This document shows, piece after piece, positions 53,654-53,956 of a stretch of 64,000 bases of DNA; within the stretch, counting starts at the first letter, position 1; the number at the start of each line of letters is the position of its first letter. Position numbers and translations under genes: made by a program. The notes beneath the pieces are model-generated. The model made no database searches and was not told the origin of the DNA. It worked only from the letters and a program-made list of their open reading frames with translations. This DNA comes from Chitinophagaceae bacterium (GTDB lineage: Bacteria; Bacteroidota; Bacteroidia; Chitinophagales; Chitinophagaceae): NCBI GenBank assembly GCA_022841365.1, contig JALHRP010000008.1, positions 1 through 64,000 of the forward strand, given 5' to 3'.

Positions 53654-53850
53654 AGCCCTTTAAAGAGGGCTAACAAAGTACCGGAGAGCAGACTTGAACT
53701 GCCGTCCGCTGCGGCGGATATGAACCCTCTTTATTATTAATTATTCATAAAAAAAGCCCTCATGAAGAGGGCTAACATCGTACCGGAGAGCAGACTTGAA
53801 CTGCCGTCCGCCGCAGCGGATATGAACCCTCTTCATTATGAATGATACAT
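53654..53850 (-). repeat. Two truncated tRNA-Met copies, each with a terminator
   Basis: Minus strand, after the full tRNA-Met: at 53781-53806 and 53679-53704 the last 26 bases of the tRNA (T-arm and 3' acceptor strand) are repeated exactly. Each is preceded by a palindrome (TCCGCTGCGGCGGA and TCCGCCGCAGCGGA on the minus strand, at 53807-53820 and 53705-53718) in place of the variable region, and by TTCATA from the anticodon loop. Each is followed by the AGCCCTCTT/AAGAGGGCT type terminator (53755-53773 and 53654-53671). The copies start exactly 102 bases apart. The D-arm and 5' acceptor strand are missing, so they cannot be working tRNAs. Confidence 0.9.
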
Positions 53851-53851
53851 T

Positions 53852-53876
53852 AAAAAAGCCCTCTTAAAGAGGGCTA
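53852..53876 (-). terminator. Terminator of tRNA-Met
   Basis: Minus strand AGCCCTCTT-T-AAGAGGGCT followed by TTTTTT, 7 bases after the tRNA. The same hairpin ends both truncated copies further on. Confidence 0.85.
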
Positions 53877-53882
53877 ATATAG

Positions 53883-53956
53883 TACCGGAGAGCAGACTTG
53901 AACTGCCGACCTTCGGGTTATGAATCCGATGCTCTAACCAGCTGAGCTACCCCGGC
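53883..53956 (-). tRNA. tRNA-Met (anticodon CAT)
   Basis: 74 bases. Acceptor 5' GCCGGGG pairs with 3' CTCCGGT (two G-T pairs), D-arm TAGCTCAGCTGGTTAGAGCA, anticodon loop TTCATAA with CAT, T-arm GGCAG-TTCAAGT-CTGCT, discriminator A. No CCA is encoded. The first pair is G-T and not the mismatch of the initiator, so it is probably an elongator; a CAT anticodon could also be a lysidine-modified Ile tRNA. Confidence 0.9.

Follow-up and report, generated by a model that had tools for sequence, protein, structure and literature searches.

Tandem partial copies of a tRNA-Met gene in a Chitinophagaceae genome: probable remains of small GIY-YIG nuclease cassettes nested in tRNA genes

The nearest known system to the arrangement reported here is SegB, a free-standing GIY-YIG homing endonuclease encoded in a tRNA cluster of phages T4 and T6 (PMC13096335; PMC2988022) which cuts inside tRNA genes and causes tRNA-Tyr to multiply in tandem along with a truncated segB (PMC13096335). 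The cassettes described below may work in a similar way. As in the available part of the SegB account, a GIY-YIG nuclease is encoded beside tRNA genes, here of many isotypes, and tRNA sequences and whole or truncated nuclease genes form tandem repeats; no hairpin-swapped partial tRNA copies are described in that part (PMC13096335). Unlike the phage-borne SegB, the cassettes lie in bacterial assemblies, encode a bare domain of ~80 aa, and comprise a replacement tRNA 3' half and partial tRNA copies into which a hairpin has been swapped. The Ssn family of Neisseria consists of small GIY-YIG nucleases that cut single-stranded DNA site-specifically at palindromic repeats of constant arms and variable centre. 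A small GIY-YIG protein and palindromes of this build are found here as well; what differs is the position of the palindromes, which lie next to the nuclease gene and within copies of its cognate tRNA. In REP/RAYT pairs the palindromes are accompanied by a Y1 HUH transposase; the linked gene found here is of the GIY-YIG type. More generally, tRNA genes are landing sites for integrases and for group I introns, the latter entering anticodon loops. Unlike with group I introns, no intron RNA was found in the window defined below (Rfam returned only RF00005 matches at gathering score) and the tRNA is apparently restored by a second 3' half and not by splicing; unlike with integrase att sites, the contig bears no PF00589 integrase. 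Finally, tandem repeats also lie downstream of the tRNA gene at tyrT/rtT of Escherichia coli and Salmonella, where each repeat holds a tRNA 3' end and where we know of no nuclease gene or hairpin-swapped anticodon arm. The rtT RNA is listed with a variable tandem repeat of 175 bp (PMC2658671). A literature search of partial coverage found no title or abstract describing this combination of tRNA, GIY-YIG gene and hairpin, and the recurrent arrangement is apparently undescribed so far.

The window, that is the whole stretch of DNA analysed, comprises the first 64,000 nucleotides of contig JALHRP010000008.1 (C8) of a Chitinophagaceae genome of 4.56 Mb, labelled G000 below. The features of the locus are collected in Table 1; going by its sequence, we take the tRNA-Met to be of the elongator type. 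Repeat detection recovered a 102-nt family with 89% identity and a 48-nt family whose three copies are 92-94% identical to the reference copy, which confirms the two half copies at an exact 102-base period that a first-pass annotation of the sequence had reported behind the tRNA. The same annotation described the last 26 bases of the tRNA as recurring identically at 53781 and 53679: the copies are identical, but the shared stretch is 27 bases long and the coordinates were off by one or two. The terminator hairpin it assigned to each copy was found again: there are three terminator-like hairpins, one behind the tRNA and one behind either copy. A palindrome was also said to replace the variable region; it is present and covers the tRNA positions given in Table 1, but the anticodon-loop letters TTCATA are retained directly before it in both copies, so that these are not pure 3' halves. 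Each unit is ordered as a terminator-like hairpin, a short AT-rich spacer, TTCATA, a 14-base palindrome and a 27-base tRNA 3' half.

Table 1. The tRNA-Met locus and its two tandem units (positions counted from the first letter of the window)
Feature	Positions	Strand	Remarks
Intact tRNA-Met(CAT)	53882..53956	-	ARAGORN; Rfam RF00005, 62.9 bits; sole tRNA found at the locus
Unit 1, 102 bases (terminator, GIY-YIG gene-start remnant, anticodon-loop remnant, palindrome, tRNA 3' half)	53780..53881	-	Aligns to the ORF-bearing unit of G292, ORF missing
Terminator-like hairpin after tRNA-Met	53857..53875	-	
ATGTATCAT, probable nuclease-gene remnant	53842..53850	-	Letters correspond to the gene start in G292 (alignment)
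Palindrome TCCGCTGCGGCGGA, perfect 5-bp stem	53807..53820	-	Replaces tRNA nt 39-48, between +3 and +14 from the first anticodon base
First tRNA 3'-half copy, 27 identical bases	53780..53806	-	
Unit 2, 102 bases	53678..53779	-	Spacer similar to that of the leading, ORF-less unit in G292
Terminator-like hairpin of unit 2	53755..53773	-	
Palindrome TCCGCCGCAGCGGA	53705..53718	-	Junction as for TCCGCTGCGGCGGA
Second tRNA 3'-half copy, 27 bases	53678..53704	-	
Terminator-like hairpin after the last copy	53654..53671	-	

On the transcribed strand, the palindromes TCCGCTGCGGCGGA and TCCGCCGCAGCGGA, each of 14 bases, are mutual reverse complements. The pattern TCCGCNGCNGCGGA has only two sites in the whole 4.56-Mb genome, both at this locus, and shuffled window sequence contained no occurrence of the palindrome pattern; a chance origin of the repeats and palindromes was rejected on these two results. 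The transcript of the locus folds strongly (z -5.2, over a stretch that includes the real tRNA). The half copies match no tRNA model up to E = 1 and no other RNA family near its gathering score.

We compared the locus with the tRNA-Met genes of seven other genomes of the genus (G083, G160, G213, G258, G321, G369 and G292). The sister genome G292 shares the flanking GNAT and permease genes, and its array consists of an ORF-less 102-base unit followed by a unit that carries a GIY-YIG nuclease gene. In the alignment with this gene-bearing unit, the first unit of the window keeps the first letters of the gene, ATGTATCAT, and lacks the rest, while the spacer of the second unit matches the ORF-less unit of G292. 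Judged from these alignments, the locus in the window has the appearance of a nuclease-bearing array that has shrunk, and we infer a loss of the nuclease gene rather than its never having been gained. G083, G160, G213, G258 and G321 have an identical tRNA-Met sequence with no copy in the ~420 bases inspected downstream, and their neighbouring genes differ. In G369 (L050), the tRNA-Met has another sequence, with a gene-bearing GIY-YIG cassette beside it; the acceptor stem of this tRNA is GGCGAGG/CCTCGCT, that of the other six genomes being GCCGGGG/CTCCGGT, and the tRNA possibly arrived together with its cassette. A family-wide DNA search gave a match in 142 of 394 genomes, many of the matches being plain tRNA 3' ends, and several genomes have at least two copies close together. 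Among the 20 stretches retrieved, the 14 inspected nearly all show CATA followed by a GC-rich palindrome, and several have a gene of ~80 codons between the copies. The first-pass annotation was right in proposing a palindrome-cored tandem unit, which recurs in relatives with varying copy number, spacing and content. For the identity of the tRNA parts, in which it saw a sign of selection or gene conversion, a recent duplication or gene conversion suffices, and this identity is not universal, since the last copy in G292 has two substitutions in the 26-mer. Overall, its interpretation is partly supported.

The gene of ~80 codons found between copies encodes a GIY-YIG nuclease (Pfam PF01541, E 3e-13 to 5e-17 in all four proteins of related cassettes); the window locus itself is without it. 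Y, Y, G, R, H, N and E are invariant in the eight aligned GIY-YIG proteins and presumably include the catalytic positions. Homing endonucleases usually carry a DNA-binding part besides the nuclease domain; the cassette protein is hardly more than the bare domain. The closest solved structures are two UPF0213 proteins, then SLX1 and I-TevI. The profile phrog_5123 (homing endonuclease with GIY-YIG motif) matched two of the eight proteins weakly (best E 2.5e-4), and TIGR01453 stayed far below its cut-off in all three proteins concerned. Three of the eight proteins of the alignment (A1) also match the PADLOC candidate defence family PDC-S14 weakly (best E 1e-5), which leaves room for another role. 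The ORF is under purifying selection in the three sets compared: dN/dS is 0.14 for the Ser ORF of G000 against that of G292, 0.18 for the Arg ORF of G000 against L131, a Chitinophagaceae MAG locus with 92% protein identity to this Arg cassette, and ~0.19 for L200 (ten pairs pooled from five tandem ORFs with an exact shared start, out of eight GIY-YIG hits).

Many small GIY-YIG genes of this kind are linked to tRNA genes. Five of the six in G000 adjoin five different ones, Ser(GCT), Arg(TCT), Pro(GGG), His(GTG) and Ser(GGA); the ORF at His(GTG) has one stop codon, the nuclease at Pro lies upstream of its tRNA and the four others downstream, and the sixth gene is interrupted by a contig end. The same genome has ORF-less arrays behind another CAT tRNA on C3, Ala(GGC) and Leu(CAA), and interrupted 5' copies upstream of Arg(TCT), Leu(TAA) and Thr(GGT). 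Altogether, 11 of the 33 distinct tRNA genes inspected in G000 (from 30 loci for 44 RF00005 matches, plus L054-L058) carry cassettes or interrupted copies. At one CAT tRNA (C3:79094-79560, L250), three tandem copies follow at ~130-base steps with TCCCGACTTTTAGTCGGGA exactly replacing the anticodon arm, and a fourth copy is more degraded.

In a family sample of 40 genomes, among the matches listed, a tRNA gene lies no more than 500 bp from 42 of the 67 small GIY-YIG loci (the six of G000 being included, and G038 C140 with three stops and L128 and L130 without tblastn hit being excluded). The nearest tRNA is on the strand of the ORF in all 42, for 20 anticodons, and lies upstream of the ORF in 34 and downstream in 8, again among the matches listed; none of eight large GIY-YIG controls (~480-630 aa) has a tRNA within 500 bp. 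The other 25 of these 67 listed loci have no tRNA within 500 bp. By eye, three unlinked family loci (L105, L123 and L127) show tRNA relics. Five small GIY-YIG genes without a tRNA (L062, L063, L064, L070 and L104) have apparent dispersed repeats behind them, among which are stretches that by eye resemble TGAGCGGAGCCGAAG or CCTCGTGCCTCGGGATGAC; this nuclease family may thus have a second lifestyle. A GTDB scan with the Arg-type protein gave 34 tRNA-linked loci out of 41, with the nearest tRNA always on the same strand; they include Pedobacter, Mucilaginibacter, Flavobacterium, Algoriphagus, Belliella, Spirosoma and Maribacter, together with a Melioribacteraceae bacterium and a Candidatus Magasanikbacteria genome. 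In these last two, records named outside Bacteroidota, tRNA-linked cassettes with interrupted copies were seen at Asp(GTC) (L140) and Lys(TTT) (L135), respectively. Only 7 of the 28 best-scoring small GIY-YIG loci of a phylum sample are tRNA-linked, so that a second, unlinked group of such genes exists. A further set (L200-L219) was hand-picked and gives no unbiased rate, 16 of its 20 loci being linked, one of these to tmRNA. In L218 (G422 C44), two tandem GIY-YIG genes lie directly downstream of a tmRNA on the same strand, with no tRNA-like copy visible by eye.

Across the ORF from the intact tRNA, a partial copy of the cognate tRNA scored better than every tRNA of another isotype in 64 of 79 testable loci (83 regions minus L126, L137, L171 and L186, which were too short). 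The 15 others are mostly Val loci (L076, L136, L138, L145, L149, L153, L183, L103 and L167), with L079 and L155 (Pro), L147 and L148 (Ala), L117 (Ser) and L124 (Leu); L103, L167, L117, L124 and L148 have no clear partial tRNA copy across the ORF. A comparison of stems with mononucleotide shuffles is weak for short stems and was not counted as proof. Hairpin junctions with both flanks mapped onto the tRNA number 78, at 54 of 88 loci (the 83 plus five Met loci, L034, L037, L039, L040 and L050). In 36 of them (25 loci, seven anticodons), the hairpin replaces exactly the 17-nt anticodon arm, from -7 to +9 relative to the first anticodon base. Another 11, all from six loci of the Met nuclease clade, lie at +3/+14, which is the junction of the window; as the 5-bp stems of the window are under the 6-bp limit of the scan, this last junction was checked directly. 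In the remaining ones, the hairpin takes the place of part of the T arm or of the D arm, or is located elsewhere. The arms TCCCG..CGGGA occur in 77 of the 162 palindromes with at least one tRNA flank, at 65 of the 83 loci, in a set that also contains terminators, and TCCCGN3-9CGGGA is found 69 times in the G000 genome against 6 for the reversed pattern. At least one palindrome of this pattern (L239) is followed by a T run and is terminator-like. In L200 (G443 C34), where eight GIY-YIG hits follow each other at ~364-bp steps, the units inspected have TCCGCC..GGCGGA hairpins, preceded by a Met-type 3' half with no tRNA recognised there.

The tRNA-Ser(GGA) gene is found both occupied and empty, in genomes that are different species and not strains. 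In G160 and G213 a terminator-like hairpin directly follows the tRNA, while in G000, G292 and G321 an intact tRNA is followed by the GIY-YIG gene and then by a displaced partial copy, which reaches the tRNA 3' end in G292 and G321 and is shorter in G000; behind this copy, both G000 and G292 have a terminator resembling the one in G160. The alignment of occupied and empty sites opens in the anticodon arm, at a point that cannot be fixed exactly because tRNA sequence flanks both sides. The simplest reading of these alignments would be that the cassette split the tRNA gene, supplied its own 3' half and left that of the host behind. The nuclease tree (86 rows, being 80 of the 83 after hits under 180 bases were dropped plus six added Met loci; 89 columns; 37 of 83 inner branches open) accounts for the tRNA isotypes with 34 changes, where shuffled labels need 61.4, and for the junction classes with 16, where they need 23.8; none of 200 shuffles was as low in either case. 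Plain inheritance may explain part of the clustering by isotype. Junctions of the Met +3/+14 type, and likewise those at Ser(GGA), are confined to one side of a branch with support 97, where rows with unmapped junctions may also lie. Two tRNA-Met loci outside the Met clade (L073 and L142) have the whole-arm junction, so that the junction seems to follow the nuclease and not the tRNA.

We propose that the half copies of the window are, quite probably, nuclease-less and internally deleted units of homing cassettes that are nested in tRNA genes, specific for one tRNA and able to rescue their target. With slightly less assurance, we also favour the more general view that such cassettes are widespread minimal mobile elements (one nuclease gene of ~80 codons in a unit of ~0.3-0.4 kb) which insert in tRNA genes at the anticodon arm, with one lineage per tRNA, restore the tRNA with their own 3' half and mark the displaced copy with a GC-rich hairpin at exact arm boundaries, their nuclease-less derivatives forming arrays like that of the window. 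A full cassette contains a tRNA 3' half, a terminator, the gene for the ~80-aa GIY-YIG protein, a fragment from the tRNA 5' half or from the anticodon loop, and the GC-rich hairpin. Its nuclease would cut the cassette-free gene of one particular tRNA around the anticodon arm; the cut ends would anneal to the tRNA sequence that brackets the donor cassette, which would then be copied in by repair. Since this tRNA sequence flanks the ORF on both sides, it would provide homology in any recipient that has the tRNA. The 3' half of the cassette would then restore a working tRNA, and the original 3' half of the host would be displaced downstream behind the hairpin, which would remove the cut site there, the replaced arm being the segment that would be lost around the cut. 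Recombination between tRNA copies could subsequently yield tandem arrays and delete the nuclease gene, giving units of the window type. Several points count against such homing: the intact tRNA of a carrier retains the presumed cut site, and its escape from self-cutting is unexplained; the protein is hardly more than a bare domain; and many small GIY-YIG genes are unlinked, 25 of the 67 listed in the family sample, with only 7 of 28 linked in the phylum sample. Moreover, the TCCCG..CGGGA arms are common to unrelated tRNA types, which hints at a role of the hairpin beyond that of a blocked cut site and keeps alive a reading in which it is itself the substrate.

In that reading, which we hold to be unlikely though worth keeping in mind, the hairpin and not the tRNA would be recognised: the GIY-YIG protein would act on palindromes, as a nuclease specific for single strands or for structure, a tRNA arm would be a landing place of similar hairpin shape, and the units would move or recombine as hairpin-ended single strands. 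Pairs of a nuclease or transposase with a palindrome, such as Ssn/NTS in Neisseria and REP/RAYT, are its models. The shared arms in 77 of the 162 palindromes (terminators included), the replacement of whole tRNA arms at exact boundaries, the genomic enrichment of the pattern and the structure-specific SLX1 nucleases among the closest solved structures, after the two UPF0213 proteins, all fit it; recognition of palindromes alone does not predict that nuclease lineages track tRNA identity, and the palindrome pattern of the window occurs nowhere else in its genome. A nuclease-driven tandem amplification kept for a benefit to the host, for instance tRNA dosage or resistance to tRNA-cutting defences, would make the half copies by-products; it has a parallel in the tRNA-Tyr and truncated segB of phage T6, according to the available part of that account (PMC13096335), and tandem arrays such as that of G443 do exist here, but the copied tRNAs are truncated and disrupted, which makes a gain in dosage unlikely, and we give this explanation a very low probability.

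Still less probable is that the half copies are stable small RNAs under selection, by analogy with the rtT RNA downstream of E. coli tyrT. Three terminator-like hairpins, a strongly folding transcript and 27 identical bases in the window could suggest it; however, the folded stretch contains the real tRNA, the half copies match no tRNA model and no other RNA family near its gathering score, the units vary in number, spacing and content among relatives and one copy of G292 diverges. A functional tRNA-like RNA was rejected, as no tRNA model matches the half copies. Att sites typically leave direct repeats of a tRNA 3' end as their footprint. Remnants of integrase-borne elements had been offered as a possible origin in the first-pass annotation. 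That origin is the least credible of all: the five matches of the genome to PF00589, the tyrosine-integrase family searched for, all lie off contig C8, the repeats include TTCATA of the anticodon loop and a palindrome and are not confined to the tRNA 3' end, the break is in the anticodon region, and related units carry a GIY-YIG gene instead. It was rejected on the PF00589 search and the position of the junction.

If the homing cassettes nested in tRNA genes are real, many Bacteroidota would carry very small self-spreading elements in their tRNA genes, for at least 20 anticodons, in a bacterial counterpart to the phage SegB. Such an element would supply the replacement half of the very gene that it breaks, a rescue trick similar to that of engineered homing drives with rescue. 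This would account for arrays of odd half-tRNAs like the one in the window, and the family would be a sizeable natural collection of tiny nucleases whose specificities for tRNA genes apparently differ.
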